Source of the DNA: a virus
Length of the DNA: 25,430 bases
Reading direction: 5' to 3' (one strand)
Virus record (IMG/VR): IMGVR_UViG_3300020466_000018
Coordinates: 1 to 25,430 of that record
Shown here: one piece after another, positions 3,822 to 23,069 of the stretch
Position numbering within the stretch: the first letter of the stretch is position 1
How the letters are laid out: each line of letters opens with the position of its first letter
The notes under the pieces: model-generated
Told to the model about the DNA's origin: nothing
What the model saw: only the letters and a program-made list of their open reading frames with translations
The model's database searches: none
Position numbers and translations under genes: made by a program

Positions 3822-4790
3822 TTACCTCTTTAGTTCTGTGACTGTTAAACCAGTTCCAGCAAAAACACCTAAATTGTAAGATGGTTCACTATTGGTATAT
3901 AAAAACAGAGCATATTTAGAGCCAGTAGTTCCAATAACATCACCAGAACTATCAATTGAATTAGTTGAATATGTAGCTTGTGCTCCATCCGCATAATCTT
4001 GGCTATCTGCTACATTATCACCTAAAAATGACGCTGAGCTGCCAAAACCAGTTGCTTGTTCATAGTAAGCATTTCCTGCTACTTTTTGTAAAACAACCCC
4101 AGTCACATATTTATTTGGCGACCATGTTCCTTTTTTTTGAACCATTGCTGAAGCATTTATAGCAAAACCACTAATATCAGATGAAATTGATCCTAAGGTT
4201 ATTTCAGCTGCAATTATACCTTGTAATGTAGAGGTTGATCCGCCACTATTACTTGAATAAGTTATTGAATTTGCAACTGTTGATAAACTTTGATTGTTGC
4301 TTGTAACTGCTGAATACATATTTGAAATAGCTTGTAATGTAATATCAACAGTTCCAATTGTTGAAAATTGAGCATTAATTTCAGTTGTATATGAACCAGC
4401 AACCAAACTTGTATTTACAGCCCGTAATTTGAAATAATAGGTTTGGTTTAAAGATAATGTATCTTCATAATTCCAATTAAATTCATTAACTGTGCCTGGA
4501 ACACCATCAACACTAGCTAATAAAGAAAAGCCACTTCCAGATGAAGTTGAATAATAAATTTCAACACCTTTTAAATCAGTATCACTTGGGTTAGTCCATT
4601 TAATTGTAATGCTAATTGGATCACTTGTTGCCGAATGACTGGTAACATTGCCTGGAGCAGATGTTTTGGTTGGAATTGTTATTTGGGATATTGCGGACAT
4701 TGCTGAATATTTTCCGGCCATATTCCTAGCTCTAACTTTAACATCATATTGAGTGCCTGTTGCAACACCTGAAATTACTGCTCTTGTCAT
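3822..4790 (-). CDS. C-terminal part of the split tail tip protein (FnIII domains)
   Basis: A 322-aa protein that begins in the middle of a fibronectin type III domain: residues 1-35 (TRAVISGVATGTQYDVKVRA, then RNMAGKYS) are the second half of such a domain and continue the first half found at the end of the 561-aa protein upstream. Residues 45-145 are a complete second FnIII domain (APGNVTSHSA ... IKWTNPSDTDLKGVEIYYS ... YYFKLRAVN). Residues 150-322 are a serine/threonine-rich beta region of receptor-binding type. Lambda gpJ-like proteins normally carry all these parts in one chain. The ATG overlaps the holin stop (ATGA), so the piece is translated by coupling to holin. Confidence 0.8.
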   Translation of the reverse strand: MTRAVISGVATGTQYDVKVRARNMAGKYSAMSAISQITIPTKTSAPGNVTSHSATSDPISITIKWTNPSDTDLKGVEIYYSTSSGSGFSLLASVDGVPGTVNEFNWNYEDTLSLNQTYYFKLRAVNTSLVAGSYTTEINAQFSTIGTVDITLQAISNMYSAVTSNNQSLSTVANSITYSSNSGGSTSTLQGIIAAEITLGSISSDISGFAINASAMVQKKGTWSPNKYVTGVVLQKVAGNAYYEQATGFGSSASFLGDNVADSQDYADGAQATYSTNSIDSSGDVIGTTGSKYALFLYTNSEPSYNLGVFAGTGLTVTELKR

Positions 4791-5239
4791 TTTGAAACTA
4801 ACCTATTTGCGAACCAAAAACTTATTATGCAGCTAAACAATGCCATACTTTCTTCTGACCAAGCGGCTTGAATTGCTTTTAAAGGTTCATCTCCTTCTTG
4901 TATGCCAACAACAACTTGTGCAACTGTAACAACACAAAACACACTAAACATACAATATGTAATTACTGGTCTGACACTTGCTGATAAAGCTGCAATAAAT
5001 TTGGATGGATTAGCTTTAGACAATTGTTGATCATGTTGGTAAACAGCTTTTGTTTGTTCAGTCATTGCCTTAACTGTTTCTTCTTTAATTTTTAAAGCAG
5101 AAAGCTCTTTTGCATATTTAATTTTGCTTTCTTGAAGCATTAATTCATGCTTCATATTTTGTTTTGCCTGGAAGAAATCCAATAATTTAGGTGTAAAGCC
5201 ACCAGCAAAGCCCAAAAGACTGCTTAATAATGAAATCAT
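4787..5239 (-). CDS. Holin, three-TM GTA-type family
   Basis: A 150-aa protein with the layout of the GTA_holin_3TM family: an N-terminal hydrophobic segment (ISLLSSLLGFAGGF), a long charged helical region (about 24-75, QAKQNMKHELMLQESKIKYA), the motif SASVRPVITY, and two membrane helices at about 92-113 and 130-147, ending SFWFANRLVSK. Holins permeabilise the inner membrane to trigger lysis. A good binding site (GGAG, nine bases upstream) supports the start. It is coded between the two halves of the tail tip protein rather than in a separate lysis cassette; its stop overlaps the start of the C-terminal tip piece. Confidence 0.85.
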   Translation of the reverse strand: MISLLSSLLGFAGGFTPKLLDFFQAKQNMKHELMLQESKIKYAKELSALKIKEETVKAMTEQTKAVYQHDQQLSKANPSKFIAALSASVRPVITYCMFSVFCVVTVAQVVVGIQEGDEPLKAIQAAWSEESMALFSCIISFWFANRLVSK

Positions 5240-5372
5240 AGTTTTTAACTCCTGTTTTTGAAAAAATGGCTTGTTTCAGCGAGTTTTCAGCTGTTTTAAG
5301 GGCTTTCCTAGTAGTAATTGATGTAAAACATCAACTTCTGCTGTATGAGCTTTAAAACGCTTTCTGGCTCGT
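5240..5372 (-). other. 133-bp non-coding gap with small inverted repeats
   Basis: This is the only real gap inside the tail tip/holin block. No ORF with a start site is visible. It holds a perfect six-pair hairpin at 5318-5334 (TTGATG, loop of five, CATCAA), and on the minus strand several short GC-containing motifs (AAAGCGTTTTAAAGC, CAGCTG) and GGAG before the holin start. No T run follows the hairpin, so it is not a convincing terminator. Confidence 0.4.
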
Positions 5373-5564
5373 TTATGAAAAAAAGACTATTTTTAAGAGC
5401 AATACAAGAACTGAAGCTGTGCCTGTTATCATAATTGCTTCAATTCTCTTAATTCTAACCAAAGTTAGTTCACTTGTTTTTGTGCACTCTTTTATATGAT
5501 CTTTTAAATGTGCTTCTAATACTGCCAATTTTTTATCCACTTCTGAAATTGTTGTTTTTGCCAT
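5373..5564 (-). CDS. Small C-terminally anchored membrane protein (holin accessory type)
   Basis: A 63-aa protein: residues 1-40 are a charged helix (EVDKKLAVLEAHLKDHIKEC), and residues 43-62 form a single C-terminal membrane helix (AIMITGTASVLVLLLKIVFF). Small helix-plus-anchor proteins of this kind (XhlA type) are often coded next to phage holins, which fits the holin 133 bases downstream. Its ATG overlaps the stop of the 561-aa tail tip protein (TAATG). Function in lysis is inferred from architecture and position. Confidence 0.7.
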   Translation of the reverse strand: MAKTTISEVDKKLAVLEAHLKDHIKECTKTSELTLVRIKRIEAIMITGTASVLVLLLKIVFFS

Positions 5565-7249
5565 TAATTGCTATCCCTTAAAGTTGAGATTGTTTCAAAA
5601 TTTGTGTCAGATGATTTTTTATAATAAATATCATATTCATAAATATGCCTATCATCCGTGCTGTCAGTTATATTCACTTCAATATTACTAACTACTGTTC
5701 CGTCTGTTGCTGTTGTTTCAAGCGCTGTTAATGAAAATGTTGGTATCGCAACATCATTTATTTTTGTAACAGTTGGGGCTGCTGTTTCTGTATAGCCAAT
5801 TTCTTCTGAATTTGACCAATCAAAAACTGAACTATCAATTTCTCGTAAAACAACATCACAACCAATGACAATATCACCTTTGTCACCCTGGCTTGTTCCA
5901 AATTTCCAATCAACAACTTCAAATGTTTTATTGTGTATGCCAATTGTGGGCAGATTAACTGTCACAATGTCCATTGGCTCAATTGCAAATTTTGTTAATT
6001 TTAATGGTAATGTCATTGTGTATGACTTACGCGATTTTTTTAAATAAATTTTTGCAATTCTTTCACACATAACAGCTGTGTTTGTCATAGGTAAAGCTAA
6101 ATCACTAACTAATGTTTCACCATCTGCTGTTACTGCAGCGCTGTCTGATATTTCAGGATAATCTGCGACAACCCAAGAGCTTTCTTCACCAATAAATGTT
6201 CCGCGAACTGTATTAAATGTTTCGCGTCTGCTTGGTTTTGTTACCAGTTGAATATCGCCTCGCAAATCAACTTCATTAATTGTTGTTGTTGAAGATCGCC
6301 ATTTACCAACAACAAGTTTAAATTTGCCATTTGAATATGTTAAATTACCTGCGCAACAACTTAATAAACTTTCTAAGTTTGATTTCATTGACGAAGCGGT
6401 ATCTATAACTCCATTGCAAGTGTATCTTTTTTGCGTTCCAGAAGTTAAAGTAATTGTATCATCACAATCATTCGCCGCCTGAGTAAATGTTGTAGTGTCA
6501 ATTCTGCTTGCGGCAACACCTAATCCATAATCACTATTTGTCAAATAATCATAAATACATAAAGCTGGATTATCACTCCAGGCAGTTGTGCTTGTTCGAT
6601 AATCTAAAATTTTTCTGCCGCGTATTTTTGCAGAAATGTTTGGCACACCAGATGTAAAAACTTCAGGATCATAAGCCATTGCAGTTTGTAAACAAACAAT
6701 GTCTTTAAATTGATCTGCGCTTGTTAAATCTGTATTTGTATAAGTTGTGCTATTTAATGTTTGTGTAGATGTTCCTAACATATCATTTAAGCCATAAAAA
6801 CTAAATCTATTGTCACTATTTGGATAATATCTAGCTGGACTGGTTACATGGCCTGAAACATTTATTGTTAATTCATCATCATTTGCGTAAACGGCTTGTA
6901 TGCTGTCACATTCTTTATATGCCAGGGCTAATACTAAATATAAATGCTCTCTTTTACTTGCAACTCCACTATCACCTTCTGCCATATATAAGATTGTTCC
7001 ACCAACACGTGCTTCACCATATACAATTTTTCTTGATTGAATAGGAGAACGAACCATTTGAGATCGCCCGCCCATTCCTTTTAAATCCATTTTTGGTAAT
7101 AATGCTTTACCAGCCATTATTAAAGGAACACCATATATAACTGTTGTTGCCGCCCAAACTGCCGCTTTAAAATACCAAGTTGCAGCAGCTCCTTTTCCAA
7201 ATAAAGCTGTGGCAAATGCAGTAGCTAATTGTGCAATAAAATTGCCCAT
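5564..7249 (-). CDS. Tail tip / host specificity protein, N-terminal part
   Basis: A 561-aa gpJ-like tail tip protein. Near the N-terminus is a hydrophobic stretch (TWYFKAAVWAATTVIYGVPL), then the characteristic SPIQSRKIVYGEARVGG motif and the beta-rich hub domains (for example CIYDYLTNSDYGLGVAASRI, about 230-250; YTMTLPLKLTKFAIEPMDIV, near 410). The last 55 residues are the first half of an FnIII domain (EYDIYYKKSSDTNFETIS) and stop abruptly; the second half begins the 322-aa gene at 4790. The tip ends the tail and recognises the host surface. The start at 7249 follows AGGGGA and lies one base after the upstream stop. Confidence 0.88.
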   Translation of the reverse strand: MGNFIAQLATAFATALFGKGAAATWYFKAAVWAATTVIYGVPLIMAGKALLPKMDLKGMGGRSQMVRSPIQSRKIVYGEARVGGTILYMAEGDSGVASKREHLYLVLALAYKECDSIQAVYANDDELTINVSGHVTSPARYYPNSDNRFSFYGLNDMLGTSTQTLNSTTYTNTDLTSADQFKDIVCLQTAMAYDPEVFTSGVPNISAKIRGRKILDYRTSTTAWSDNPALCIYDYLTNSDYGLGVAASRIDTTTFTQAANDCDDTITLTSGTQKRYTCNGVIDTASSMKSNLESLLSCCAGNLTYSNGKFKLVVGKWRSSTTTINEVDLRGDIQLVTKPSRRETFNTVRGTFIGEESSWVVADYPEISDSAAVTADGETLVSDLALPMTNTAVMCERIAKIYLKKSRKSYTMTLPLKLTKFAIEPMDIVTVNLPTIGIHNKTFEVVDWKFGTSQGDKGDIVIGCDVVLREIDSSVFDWSNSEEIGYTETAAPTVTKINDVAIPTFSLTALETTATDGTVVSNIEVNITDSTDDRHIYEYDIYYKKSSDTNFETISTLRDSN

Positions 7250-7250
7250 T

Positions 7251-7673
7251 TTATCCCCTAATCCTTAAACTTCTTACATTAAAAAAATATTTTCCTTTTT
7301 CGACAGGGAAAGCAATTAAACCTTTTTCTGAAACACCTAATAATTTACCTTTATAAAAAACCAATGAGCTATATTTTGAAAAACTTGTTTCATCTGGATT
7401 TTCAGCTAAAACTAAATCACCATCTTTTAATTTTTTACTGTTATTATGTTGGCGAAAGCGAACATCAAAAGCTTCAACAATATCTTTATGTTTTAAAAAT
7501 TTTATTAAAACTCTTTTCCCAGTATAAGCATTATTCCATTTTCTTATGTGTCTTAAATGGTCAATTCCAGTTGCAGCTTTAACAGCCCCCATGGCAAATG
7601 TAATACAATCATTTTTTCCCCATTCAAATTCTTTGTGCAAATGGGTTGCAATATAATCATCTAAATTATTCAT
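7251..7673 (-). CDS. DUF6950-type tail assembly protein (NlpC/P60-related position)
   Basis: A 140-aa protein with the pattern FEWGKNDCITFAMGAVKAAT (Cys23 before a helix), then DGDLVLAENP and GKLLGVSEKGLIAFP. This matches the small family that replaces the NlpC/P60 peptidase between the tail hub and tip genes in many phages. The Cys-bearing helix and GD turn resemble NlpC/P60, but the histidine normally found in the H-V-G strand is absent, so peptidase activity is doubtful. One base separates it from each neighbour's start or stop, consistent with an ordered tail tip operon. Confidence 0.75.
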   Translation of the reverse strand: MNNLDDYIATHLHKEFEWGKNDCITFAMGAVKAATGIDHLRHIRKWNNAYTGKRVLIKFLKHKDIVEAFDVRFRQHNNSKKLKDGDLVLAENPDETSFSKYSSLVFYKGKLLGVSEKGLIAFPVEKGKYFFNVRSLRIRG

Positions 7674-7674
7674 T

Positions 7675-8664
7675 TTAAAATGGTAAATCTATTTCACCAG
7701 CTAATGCTTTTCTTTGTGCTTCTTCAAGCATAGCTTCTCTATCTGCATTTGAAATAACTGGAGCCACTTGACTAAATGGAACACCCCATAATATTTCTTT
7801 ATTTTGCAATCCAGCAACATATCTTAGACTGGTATCAGTTGAATAAAGTGACCTTTGTGCTTCGTCTGTATATCTAATTAATCTATTTCTTTCAAAATCA
7901 ATTAAACTACTTTCAACAGTTGCATTTATTGTTACAACTTCACCGCCTTGTATAATATTCATTTGGTCAGTTTTTCCATAAAATAATTCATATGGTGTTG
8001 TTGTTAGAGAACCATCACTATCTAAACAACCAAAATAAATTGTTACATCCCTTCCTTGATATTCTTCTTCTAATGCTGCTGTAAGTAAGTTTGTTGGTAT
8101 TCCAGATAAGCTTAAAGTTATTCCATCTGCCGTTAAATTTCCACCTTGCTGCATATTGGAAATATTTATTAAATCTCCAAGCCCTTTATATGTATTACTG
8201 CTTATTGTAATATCACCATATCCTGTCCAGGCCCTTACTTCAGGATCAACAATATTCATTTGCATACCCATTCCAGAGTGATTTGCACATTTTATCCAAA
8301 GTGTATCTGGAGCTGTTGCGGCAACAACTAATTGAGCAACACCATTTGTTCCCGCTGAACCAGTATAAGAATAACCAGTTGTATAATCAGTTCCATCTTC
8401 TGTTGTTGAAAACTCTATTGGATGGCCGGAATTTGAACCATCACTTTGATCAAACTTAATTGTATTTCCCCTGGCAACTGTAATCACATCCTGTTGGACT
8501 TCATTTATAGCATACCTATTAACAGTTCCAGTTGATCCACCAACTTGCATAACTGTTGAATAAAATGTTCTTGTTATTGAACCTGAAAAATCTATTTCAA
8601 CAGCAAAAAATGGCTGCACTTCTGTGTCTGCTATTTCACTAGCAAAATTTATAGTTCTAGCCAT
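7675..8664 (-). CDS. Tail hub-type protein with inserted cupredoxin-like domain
   Basis: A 329-aa protein. The outer parts (1-43 and 140-329) belong to a minor tail protein family found between the distal tail protein and the tip: FFAVEIDFSG, RAWTGYGDITISS, YKGLGDLINIS, LSLSGIP, GRDVTIYFG and a C-terminal helix. Between them, residues 44-139 form a separate domain typical of cupredoxins: VARGNTIKFDQSDGSNSGHP, then STTEDGTDYTTGYSYTGSAG, then TLWIKCANHSGMGM. His81, Cys126, His129 and Met134 have the spacing of plastocyanin type 1 copper ligands (C, +3 H, +8 M). The start at 8664 overlaps the end of a small basic ORF. The copper domain is clear by pattern; actual metal binding is unproven. Confidence 0.8.
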   Translation of the reverse strand: MARTINFASEIADTEVQPFFAVEIDFSGSITRTFYSTVMQVGGSTGTVNRYAINEVQQDVITVARGNTIKFDQSDGSNSGHPIEFSTTEDGTDYTTGYSYTGSAGTNGVAQLVVAATAPDTLWIKCANHSGMGMQMNIVDPEVRAWTGYGDITISSNTYKGLGDLINISNMQQGGNLTADGITLSLSGIPTNLLTAALEEEYQGRDVTIYFGCLDSDGSLTTTPYELFYGKTDQMNIIQGGEVVTINATVESSLIDFERNRLIRYTDEAQRSLYSTDTSLRYVAGLQNKEILWGVPFSQVAPVISNADREAMLEEAQRKALAGEIDLPF

Positions 8665-8803
8665 TTAGTTTTTCTCTTTTTAATTGTTTAGCTTTTTTTC
8701 TTTGGCTTCTTTTACCAAAAATAATTTCTTGTTTAACTTTTTCAATCCAAGGGTATTTAGACGCTTTATGACTGCGTTTCCCTTTCCAATTCTTGTCTTT
8801 CAT
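8657..8803 (-). CDS. Very small basic ORF (48 aa)
   Basis: Starts MKDKNWKGKRSHKASKYPWI and ends QLKREKLNG; about one third of the residues are Lys or Arg. It begins inside the end of the preceding 52-aa ORF and ends eight bases into the start of the tail hub gene, so it fills the gap with overlaps on both sides. No membrane segment and no known motif. The binding site is weak. A nucleic-acid-binding or assembly role is only a guess, and non-translation remains possible. Confidence 0.45.
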   Translation of the reverse strand: MKDKNWKGKRSHKASKYPWIEKVKQEIIFGKRSQRKKAKQLKREKLNG

Positions 8804-8924
8804 GTTTTGATTTTCTTAAATATTTTTTCTTATTTTTAACAATTCGTGTATATGTGCCTTGTTGCTGTCTAATTGGTCTTTTTTTCTTGCATTTACAAGT
8901 CACACATTTGCAATTTTTGTTCAT
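8766..8924 (-). CDS. Very small Cys-rich basic ORF (52 aa)
   Basis: Begins MNKNCKCVTCKCKKKRPIRQ: four cysteines in a C-x-C-x2-C-x-C cluster that could bind zinc, followed by a strongly basic tail. The ATG overlaps the stop of the distal tail gene (TAATG), as in other coupled pairs in this operon, which supports translation. No family was recognised. Confidence 0.5.
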   Translation of the reverse strand: MNKNCKCVTCKCKKKRPIRQQQGTYTRIVKNKKKYLRKSKHERQELERETQS

Positions 8925-9559
8925 TAAAGAGCTTCAATAGCTGTAAATGATATTCCATAAACTGAAGCATGATTAACATTCCAATTCATCTCATTTGAAG
9001 CTAATCTAAAAACACCAGTTGCATTGCTAACAGTTATCGTTTCACTTCCTGATAAATCAGTTCTTAATGCCGGGAATATATCAACAACACAATTACCAGA
9101 AACATCTGTATTTGTGTTTTGTAAAACTTTTAATAATTGCCTAGATGTTCCAGTTCCAATTGATATGTAATCACCAGATTTGAAATAATTTGTTTGGGAA
9201 GGGCCGGCATTTGTAATTGATAGCGTATTAGCTCTTGCAGAATGAGCTCCATTAACAATAGGAGTGCCTGGAGTTACGCTACAAGTTCCCCTGGCAGTTA
9301 ATCCATTTGGGTCTGGATTTAGATAAAATGTGCCATAAATGCCTTTTAATTGGGTTAGAAAGCTAATCCAATCTTCACAAGTGTTTCTTTTCATGGGAAC
9401 TAATTGAACATCAGCTTCCCAAAATTCACCTGAAAATTTATAAACTTGTTGTTGATAAGAAAATGGACTTTGTGTTAATCCAACTGTTGTTTTAGCCATA
9501 ATTCTAACGCTAGCAAAACTTGTTGTATCAGGTAAAGATAATGGATAAGTAATCGTCAT
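8924..9559 (-). CDS. Distal tail protein-like
   Basis: A 211-aa beta-rich protein with a recognisable minor tail pattern: SFSYQQQVYKF-type strand, FSGEFWEADVQLVPMKRNTC, WISFLTQLKGIYGTFYLNPD, then YFKSGDYISIGTG and DIFPALRTDLSG, with a closing strand NVNHASVYGISFTAIEAL. Proteins of this type follow the tape measure and form the ring that joins tube and tip (Dit role). The ATG overlaps the tape measure stop (ATGA). Assignment rests on pattern and gene order; the exact Dit equivalence is inferred. Confidence 0.75.
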   Translation of the reverse strand: MTITYPLSLPDTTSFASVRIMAKTTVGLTQSPFSYQQQVYKFSGEFWEADVQLVPMKRNTCEDWISFLTQLKGIYGTFYLNPDPNGLTARGTCSVTPGTPIVNGAHSARANTLSITNAGPSQTNYFKSGDYISIGTGTSRQLLKVLQNTNTDVSGNCVVDIFPALRTDLSGSETITVSNATGVFRLASNEMNWNVNHASVYGISFTAIEAL

Positions 9560-19583: not shown

Positions 19584-22500
19584 TTATCCTTTTATTATAA
19601 ATTTAGTCGTTCCTGTTGATACTCCAATTTCTTTATCAGTTGAAGCAACTGATTGCCCTGTTGAAATAGCTCCAGTTGATTTATTTAAAGCCACTAATTG
19701 ACCAGTTGTTAAACCTGATTGATTGCTGTCCACATTGCCATAAGTTTTTAAAACAACTGAATTTGTTGCTGTGACATCAGATTGAGCTATACCAAGAAAA
19801 TTATCAGCATAATTTTCTCTTAAAATGCCAAAATCTTTAAGATTGTTTTTGCCATTTCCATAAGCGGTGTCATTGAAATTATTATATATTGCTCTGGTAT
19901 TGTTATACATATCACCACCAGCAAATCTAAAAGTTATTCTGTAAGAGCCCTCTCTACCCCAACCAGAGTATGTATCTGTATAGTTACTTGGGTTAGTGTA
20001 ATAAGGGCTTGAATTTGTAGGTTCAAAAATACCATAATGAATATCGTAATCATTATTTATTCCGTTACCATAAGCAAGAATTGCTTTATCAGCTTCGCTA
20101 TCATAAAAACAATCTACTACTTGCAAGCCGCCAGAATTTAAACTTGTTTGTATTTCAGTAGTATTACCAACTGTTTGTGGAGTGCTGTTATCAGTTGTAG
20201 ATGTAACAGGATCATAAAATAATTGGAAATCTACTATTGTTCCATATCTTGCAAATACATATTGATAACAATAAATTGTTCCGCTGGTATCTATGTTGCG
20301 TGTAAAAATACTTAAACCAGTTTGGTTACTATCACTTGCTTGATTAGCAACATGACTAGTTGAGTTCCAACTAGCAGAAGTATCACTACTCCAATACAAT
20401 TTATATATACCCCAAGTGCCAGTCCTAAATTCTCTTGGAGTGCCAATATAAACATAAGGAAGTGTTGGATGTTCTGCTACACAAACTTGATCTTTCATAG
20501 TCCAATAATATTGAATACCAGCTGAACCTAGTGAGTTCCATGAAGCACTAAGAGAATAATCTGATCCACCAAAGTAGCAGTTGCCAACATAAGCATAACT
20601 GTTGTCATACCATTGTATTCCAGCATAAGACACTAAAAACATAAATGAACCTAATGTTGTTGTGCCTGATAAAGTTCTTGCAGTGCAATCAACCCACTTA
20701 ACAATGCACATATCGTTACTGCCGTCATTACGGCTATAAGAACTACTTGCTGTAAGTGTATCTTGTAAAGTTAAAGTATTATCACTAGCTAAAGTATATA
20801 TAAATAGTTGGGCAGGAGAAGATGTTGCCCTAGTTATACCAATGCCAATAGCTTGAGTGCCATCATTCTTTTTACCTACATCAACATCAGCTCCACAATT
20901 AGTGTTACTGTATAAAACTAATTCAGTATGCAAAGTAAAACTATCGCCTGATTTTTCAACTACCCTACAAGCTTGATAGTTTGAATTATTATGATAAGTA
21001 ACAACCCATTTATTATTTCCAATATATGCTGCGCCCTGATTGCCTTGTGCTTCTTCTGCGCTTAATTGTGCGCCTGGTATAACTTCATTTGTTGAGCCAA
21101 CATTTAAACTTGATGATAAAACATTTTTAGCTAAAAATCCTGTTCCAGCTGATCCTACCCCAACTGGTTGACCTTTTAATAAATCTTCACCAGCAACTAT
21201 GCTCAATTCATTTGGATTAGGGGCATGCAATCTAACACTCGTTGCTGACATAGCTGTTCCAATATTTCTATCACCAGAAGAACCTATTGTTCCATCATTA
21301 GCAATGTATATTGGGCTTCCTTGGCTCAGTCCAGTTTGTGAATTGTTAATACTTCCATCTAAAGAAACTCTAACAGGGTTTCCAGAGGTATTACCATCAA
21401 TAGCCACTCCAAGATAATCACCAATATTTGAAGTCGTTAGTGTTTTACCGCTATAACATTCAATGTCATAAGAGCTTGTTTGAAGCCAACCAACAAAATC
21501 ATAATTACCATTTAATTGTAGATAAGCATAATTATATGCTGCGTTCGTCATATCACTTTCTTTACTCGTAATTTCGTGAATACTAGAAGAAAAACCTGAA
21601 GATGTGCTGCAAGTTATGGCGTTTACTTTCCATTTATTTGAGTCTGTTGTATCTTTAAAAGATTGATAAACTTTTCCATCTGCATTGAGATACGCTAACC
21701 AATTTCTATTCCAAGTTCCATAAGACCATGTTGATATGGCAGGAAATAATGTAGTATTATCATTTGTTTTTGTTACCCAGCTTGAACCAGAACTAGAACA
21801 TTCCAACATTGATGTTTGTATTTCATAGGGTGAACTTTCATGCTGAGTAATTATAATTGATCTGCTGATACTATCATTGTAAACAACACTAATAACATTT
21901 GATGTTCCAGAATAAGAAGTTATATCTTCCGCATATTGCCAACCATAAGTGCCATAACCACCATTTCCGTCAGCTCTTTCAACTTTAACTTCATTATCAC
22001 TACTAGAAGTAAATGCTTGAAGAACTCTATTAGCATTGTCGTCATACCACATCCAAATTTGCTTACCACTTTTAAAGCCACCGCCTTGCTGCTCATAACC
22101 CCATCCACCGCCATTCCATCTTTGTAAAGAATTGCTAGTTGGTTGAAGCCAACCAAGATTATAATAAGCTTGACCACTGCTGAAATATGTTTGGTATTGA
22201 GCAAGTAAAATTTGCTGATTTTTATCATAACAAGATATGACTGTTCGTGATGATACCTGATTGCCAAAAGATGACATCTGATATTCACTGCCACCCATCA
22301 TTGTTAAAGTAGTGCCGCTTGCAGTAAACCATCCGCTCCATATGCGAGTATAATAACTATCCCTGTTATAAGTATAAAAGTATTTAAAAGTTCCAGAGTG
22401 ATTTCCTGTTGTTAAACATTGATACCCATCATTCGTATAACAAGTGTTTGAACTGCAAATAATCTTACTTCCCCAAGTTATTACTCCAGTTGAAGTATTA

Positions 22501-23069
22501 ACTGATCCAGCTATTGCGCTTGGGTATGTGTTGGCGTCTCTAAAAAATATAACCACTACATTATTGTCTTGGTCATAATGCTGTCCTAAAATTCTTGTGC
22601 TGCTATTTCCTGCACTATCAAGAGTTGATGTTGAAGTATTGTAAGATGTTGTTTCTTTGATTTTACTAACTGTTCCATCACTATTTAAACCAACGCCATT
22701 ACCAGCAACTATTGTATCGCCAGAAACATTGTATGGTAATTCAATACCAGCGTCACTAAAGCTTGATTTTTCAGCAGAGTAAGTAGTGAAAACATTATGC
22801 GTTCCTGTGCCTAAATTAATTGCATTGCCAGAATTACTTGAACTTAATATTGTTGTTCTTGCTAATGTAGTTCCTGAAGCTGTATATGTGCCAATGCCAA
22901 CTTCCCACGCGTTGTTTCCTGATCCATCTGTAATACAATAGTATGTGGTGTTTCCATCACCTACTGCACTAAAAGATTGAAAACCATCAGCTGCACCAGC
23001 CAGGGTTATTGTTCCTGTTCCTGTTGTAGTTGTGGTTTCTTTTACTCTATCTTTAACTGTTAAAGCCAT
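19584..23069 (-). CDS. Large fibre protein with two repeated beta domains
   Basis: An 1161-aa protein. Residues 1-105 are an anchor domain common at the start of phage fibres ([40 protein letters not shown]). Two long beta-rich domains follow, about 145-530 and 660-1105, with propeller-like strand patterns and many aromatic residues. They are separated and ended by related short modules: [20 protein letters not shown] near 580 and [20 protein letters not shown] near 1120; further related pieces are [20 protein letters not shown] and [20 protein letters not shown]. It should bind a surface receptor or decorate the particle. Its start follows the terminase stop immediately (TAAATG). Confidence 0.78.

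Follow-up and report, generated by a model that had tools for sequence, protein, structure and literature searches.

What is a copper-protein-like domain doing in the tail of a bacteriophage, and does it hold copper? The locus that raises this question lies in a stretch of viral DNA of 25,430 bases (hereafter the window, meaning the whole stretch analyzed), which is an entire virus record. Because its gene set comprises terminase, portal, head, connector, tape measure and tail genes together with an integrase, the virus is most likely a temperate siphovirus. At 7675..8664 on the minus strand, the strand of every feature described below, an open reading frame (ORF) encodes a tail protein of 329 amino acids (aa). 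The original prediction held that residues 44-139 of this protein (8248-8535) interrupt a tail protein fold with a plastocyanin-like copper domain whose ligands are His81, Cys126, His129 and Met134. The ORF is present, these residues correspond exactly to those positions, and the four named residues are found where they were placed.

A gpL-type hub protein and its neighbors

The 329-aa protein is a tail hub protein of the lambda gpL type. Residues 140-306 match the tail protein family phrog_2048 at E 7.7e-41, and the predicted fold of the non-inserted part is like hub domain I of T5 pb3, RcGTA and R4C. Both this fold and the place of the gene, between the distal tail protein and the K/J genes, are those of the lambda gpL family, and Roseobacter phage CRP-406 has an equal gene order around a short minor tail protein L. 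In the window, the distal tail protein (8924..9559; phrog_1302, E 1.5e-30) holds the gpM position. The gpK position is occupied by a DUF6950 protein (7251..7673; PF22262, E 2e-20) with a weak match to NlpC/P60 (PF00877, E 0.024, under the cut-off). Next comes a short gpJ-like hub protein of 561 aa (5564..7249) that matches phrog_5616 and phrog_31, followed by a separate gpJ-like piece of 322 aa (3822-4790). The gpJ gene is split over two ORFs within 3822-7249, separated by a 150-aa ORF (phrog_6637) and by a short one that contains a hydrophobic stretch and looks holin-like by eye.

Several further ORFs of this virus deserve mention in their own right. A 52-aa ORF between the distal tail gene and gpL (8766-8924) starts MNKNCKCVTCKCKKK, with the pattern C-x-C-x2-C-x-C. 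It probably encodes a real small cysteine-rich protein that may bind metal, since it is kept in two relatives (L001 and L002) and eight of its nine differences to L002 fall at third codon positions. Directly upstream of gpL, a very basic 48-aa ORF (8657-8803; GKRSH...GKRSQRKKAK) was found by the core scan in 14 of 16 loci that bear the insert and in 0 of 64 that are free of it; family searches with it matched none. Finally, a 1161-aa ORF adjoining the terminase gene (19584-23069) has no PHROG match at E 0.001.

One insertion in one lineage

The insert itself is real, as homologues that run directly through the site demonstrate. In CRP-406 minor tail protein L and in a 228-residue frame (L013), the first strand (PF[FY]A...) leads straight into WTG. 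Comparison with such homologues widens the borders given in the original prediction: the inserted domain comprises residues about 30-142 (~113 residues; 8239..8577) rather than 44-139. Among 80 homologous gpL loci, the ~113 residues are present in 16 and absent from 64. These loci are the best 80 of 410 relatives in viral contigs, ranked by likeness to a query set that includes cores with the insert, and the proportion of 16 in 80 therefore does not represent a natural frequency; in addition, loci from the same contig or closely related ones are counted several times. That the combination is a fusion artefact was rejected, as the entire protein with its insert occurs in 12 other loci (L001-L012). 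Two loci (L014 and L015) carry a different gpL insert, a repetitive stretch of ~60 residues rich in Ser/Thr/Gly/Val that sits slightly further on, after WTGYGDLFAN.

A maximum-likelihood tree of the gpL core was built from 83 rows, 65 of them different, including 17 insert rows with the window. All 17 fall on one side of one branch (support 99/99), and since they share this branch, the insertion into gpL is a single change in one lineage. Many independent entries were considered and rejected on the same tree, in which L171 forms a long branch whose place is less sure. Judged by dN/dS, which is 0.06-0.15 in six of seven pairs and 0.45 in the seventh (L003/L004), the insert is under purifying selection.

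A shortened gpJ accompanies the insert. In the 16 insert-bearing loci, gpJ ends at 557-574 residues in all 12 that are decidable (four undecided), the length class to which the window's 561-aa protein belongs, and a short first gpJ part is common to the lineage. In the 64 insert-free loci, all 53 decidable gpJ frames are longer, 52 being open beyond 600 residues and one closed at 692 (11 undecided). The link between the insertion and the shortening of gpJ is confined to one branch, hence a correlation based on a single event, and may reflect shared ancestry only. Moreover, the separate gpJ-like piece at 3822-4790 may still supply a fiber.

Predicted fold of the insert

The AlphaFold2 model of the gpL-type protein was made from a 77-row alignment (A4: 39 of the 52 selected domain fragments, 26/26 core fragments and 12 full-length rows). 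It has a mean pLDDT of 78.8 and a pTM of 0.50, a value that leaves the mutual placing of the two domains unsure. Confidence is highest in the insert, where ten-residue blocks over 31-140 average pLDDT 80-98. A fold of the domain from its single sequence reached a mean pLDDT of 51 and was not used.

Structural comparison with VIA-align listed 50 chains, of which 38 match the insert range and 12 match phage hub or baseplate proteins, a gene transfer agent and the T6SS protein VgrG. The insert-range matches are overwhelmingly cupredoxins. Named copper proteins make up 32 of the 38 (nitrite reductases, laccases, other multicopper oxidases, rusticyanin and plastocyanin); the remainder are three chains of clotting factors V/VIII, whose A domains are cupredoxin-like, and three of SO1698. 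Nitrite reductase of Hyphomicrobium matches the insert best (Z 9.4, rmsd 2.5 over 99 residues; 24-133 of the chain), with small laccase at Z 9.0 and plastocyanin at Z 7.2, a Z of 7-8 being middling by itself. Cupredoxin matches start at residues 26-32 of the model and span about 28-141. The non-inserted part matches hub proteins, namely T5 pb3 (Z 12.4), the gene transfer agent (11.1) and marine siphophage R4C (10.8). Foldseek also matches CueO, but with an rmsd of about 20 across two domains, and these matches were disregarded as evidence. According to the model, then, the insert is a cupredoxin-type Greek-key beta-sandwich, as had been proposed for this hub protein.

The candidate copper site

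Conservation across the domain family bears on the site itself. From 149 sources, after removal of L016 (the window's own copy), 153 matches were obtained; 10 identical rows were dropped and five partial ones set aside, leaving 138 complete distinct copies. Half-copies in three loci (L020, L021 and L025) and a short piece in L018 are outside this count. Three of the four proposed ligands hold throughout, and the window and all 138 copies carry His, Cys and His in cupredoxin order: His81 (8422..8424; H-P-I-E-F), the candidate first ligand; Cys126 (8287..8289), the candidate thiolate ligand; and His129 (8278..8280), the candidate second His ligand. The last two align with the Cys and His of pseudoazurin.

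The fourth does not. Met134 (8263..8265), the axial ligand originally named, occurs in 3 of 138 copies, those of the window and its two closest relatives (L001 and L002), whereas Met132 (8269..8271) is invariant. Position 134 is Gly in 108 copies and Ala in nine, and the window, L001 and L002 carry both methionines. Selection by the scan patterns was in part for C..H..MG itself, and a separate tally was therefore made of the 27 copies outside this pattern: the His/Cys/His/Met132 set is present in 27/27 and Met134 in 0/27. The four residues are invariant although the copies differ widely elsewhere; Pro82 and Gly133 are each present in 137/138.

These counts dispose of the plastocyanin spacing H-x4-M as a feature of the family, even though the window's own letters have Met134. 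In nine of nine blue copper proteins compared (seven pseudoazurins and two phage-borne plastocyanins), the H-x4-M methionine is constant and the Met132-equivalent position varies. The spacing found here, C-x2-H-x2-M (C126, H129, M132), is that of the amicyanin loop, and the title of PDB entry 2vmj names a loop CTPHPFM as a type 1 copper loop. Because Met132 is invariant and C-x2-H-x2-M is an amicyanin-type type 1 copper loop, Met132 is more likely than Met134 to be the axial ligand, a role assigned from sequence. Nor is the site a plain copy of a known one, since Pro follows the first His and, in the loop, Asn stands where plastocyanin has Pro. The insert has a predicted cupredoxin fold and a site that is probably type 1-like.

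Sequence likeness to copper proteins

Comparison of sequences alone points in the same direction, with less force. In a profile-profile comparison, 53 domain rows matched the seven pseudoazurins at E 3e-5 (probability 48%, 109 columns), whereas the controls (the gpL core, a reversed profile and five shuffled profiles) gave E 0.63-0.99. This alignment places Cys126 and His129 on their pseudoazurin counterparts and His81 three residues away from the pseudoazurin His, an offset that a longer loop would explain. Searched with phmmer, plastocyanin 7pcy appears at E 0.028. A sequence profile against the PDB finds pseudoazurins at E 0.024-0.26, a weak result given that an echovirus capsid protein scores among them at 0.083.

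Against the Pfam copper family PF00127, the window insert scores 17.7 bits, below the gathering score of 21.2, and an NCBIfam search gave no match. Of 14 domain copies, seven match the Pfam family PF25489 (At5g54830-like) at a threshold of E 0.1, the best of them at E 3e-6; the window copy, at 15.7 bits, lies below its cut-off of 27. By spacing and Pfam score, the insert is not a member of the plastocyanin family.

Spread of the domain

A domain of this kind on a phage tail had been called unexpected. Unusual it is, yet not peculiar to this phage: the domain occurs in at least 568 stretches of viral contigs. Residues 45-138 match phrog_30742 (E 3e-15 and 1.6e-13) and phrog_27200 (E 6e-15 and 1.7e-13), families of tail fiber or structural proteins, a likeness far above chance. 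Additionally, 12 isolate records match the insert at E 1e-5, from phages of Synechococcus, Prochlorococcus, Methylophilales and Pelagibacter. On this sequence evidence, the domain is a recurrent module of marine phage structural proteins. The half-copies in three cyanophage proteins (L020, L021 and L025) are without the Cys-His-Met part, so some relatives would do without metal.

Matches to the domain also occur at 44 loci of genome contigs. Seven (L114, L117, L118, L126, L130, L137 and L149) have lipoprotein-like N-termini, with a hydrophobic stretch followed by ACGGGGG, and the protein of L118 also has a cadherin domain; others appear to be phage genes that were binned with hosts. In phages the domain would thus be an exterior module, and in bacteria, to judge by these N-termini, it would lie outside the cytoplasm. 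Similar large ORFs that include the domain occur in genome bins assigned to different domains of life, L138 (a contig of 189 kb with the label Prochlorococcus) and L145 (with the label Euryarchaeota); both are probably cyanophage contigs among host bins. A small phage-type family with a C-terminal cupredoxin domain (L106-L108, L110, L113, L120 and L147) has starts like MARFASGRKTYGISDRSGFRY...EWNG...KHPQ, some with CDRCG, and matches phrog_28581 in the two members scanned. The nirK of a marine viral contig was rejected as a domain of this kind; it is described as a complete nitrite reductase gene (PMC8115048).

What the domain may do

We give a probability of about one half to the reading that the insert is a copper-site beta-sandwich, present in three copies at the tail tip, that entered the gpL-type hub once and serves host contact. 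Insertion, predicted fold, conservation and single lineage are computed here; copper loading, exposure and a contact role are inferred. In outline, hub domain I received a cupredoxin-fold domain in its first beta-hairpin on one occasion. A domain of 113 residues would hardly fit in the DNA channel, and three cupredoxin domains would face outward from the hub ring. In each, His81, Cys126, His129 and Met132 would suit a type 1 copper centre whose loop is short and of amicyanin type, and one Cu would be taken up in the medium, once the particle is outside the cytoplasm. The scarcity of free copper in sea water counts against such loading. Once bound, the metal may stiffen the loops at one end of the domain, which would be the contact face.

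The main job of the domain would be to make contact with structures on the host surface, a role that has been suggested for Ig-like domains in the tails of other phages (PMC10721106). A host-contact role is suggested because the domain also occurs in marine phage tail fiber and baseplate families and in lipoprotein-like bacterial proteins, and because insert-bearing loci have a short gpJ (12/12, vs 0/53 of the decidable insert-free loci).

The same four residues might instead hold zinc in the particle, or no metal at all, and be kept for folding or for contact with another protein, the domain then being a cupredoxin-shaped decoration. This is unlikely, though the score under the Pfam copper cut-off, half-copies without the Cys-His-Met part and a Met position unlike that of plastocyanin speak for it. 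It explains poorly why exactly the four residues of a type 1 site are kept in 138/138 copies, and in a cupredoxin fold.

An improbable alternative casts the tail-tip copper as bait for an outer-membrane metal receptor of the host, comparable to the role of iron in the Trojan Horse (Ferrojan Horse) hypothesis. Iron-binding HxH tail fibers are discussed for marine phages (PMC11705849), and the copper-type domain is carried by phages of several marine hosts. An objection is that a type 1 site buries its copper.

There is also a small chance that the copper centre is redox active, swapping electrons with host envelope proteins or removing oxidants, and so triggers ejection or protects the tip. The cupredoxin fold with a full candidate ligand set would suit this role; against it, the ORFs examined yielded no redox partner and, with only two cysteines, this gpL lacks the [4Fe-4S] ligands of lambda. 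Lastly, an ordinary Ig-like beta-sandwich that resembles a copper motif by chance is scarcely credible and already disfavored, for although Foldseek also lists a few chains with Ig domains (E about 2e-3 to 3e-3), none is among the 50 VIA-align rows, 32/38 insert-range rows are copper proteins, and the candidate ligands are invariant.

Host contact through a copper-site domain may extend beyond this lineage, in a broader proposal that is tentative and rather doubtful. Marine tailed phages as a group would carry amicyanin-loop type 1-like copper centres on fibers, baseplates and hub rings, loaded once the particle has left the cell and serving in host contact; virions would be part of the ocean's copper ligands, and in the lineage of the window the centre would have moved into the hub ring while the fiber part was cut from gpJ.

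Significance

In its modeled form, the insert resembles the blue copper proteins of photosynthesis and respiration. If true, a strictly conserved site of copper type, in structural proteins that are widespread among marine phages, would add a new class of cofactor to virions and tie virus particles to trace-metal chemistry. The metal centres at tail tips found in the parts of the literature covered were only the gpL iron-sulfur cluster and iron on HxH fibers. In the open-access literature searched, no title or abstract opening reports a virion protein with a domain of cupredoxin or plastocyanin type, which does not imply absence from print. For annotation, there is a warning that cupredoxin matches in marine viral contigs are not necessarily electron-transfer genes taken from hosts.

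Comparison with known systems

The non-inserted part of the protein shares its fold with hub domain I of lambda gpL, RcGTA gp13 and T5 pb3, and the gene order (tape measure, distal tail, L, K-like, J) is shared with lambda gpL-type systems. Unlike lambda gpL, the window protein has a cupredoxin domain in its first hairpin. Lambda gpL has a four-Cys [4Fe-4S] domain (Cys173/182/205/212; PMC10721106). The window gpL has two cysteines in all, Cys126 and the Cys of FGC, so the C-terminal four-Cys domain of lambda type and its [4Fe-4S] cluster are absent from it. Some other gpL homologues are known to lack the [4Fe-4S] domain (PMC13243795).

Pseudoazurin and plastocyanin have in common with the insert the cupredoxin fold and the His...Cys-x2-His arrangement, and the window has M-G-M like most of the pseudoazurins compared. 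They differ in having the Met at x4, whereas the conserved Met is at x2 here, and the present domain is embedded in a structural protein. Amicyanin shares the loop C-x2-H-x2-M, in a domain context that is wholly other, and no sequence match to it was found. PF25489 (At5g54830-like) matches some copies of the domain. The direct homologues are the domains of phrog_30742, phrog_677, phrog_708 and phrog_693 from cyanophage, pelagiphage and Methylophilales phage, which have the same four residues. Those domains reside in tail fibers and baseplate proteins, whereas that of the window lies inside a siphovirus hub ring protein.
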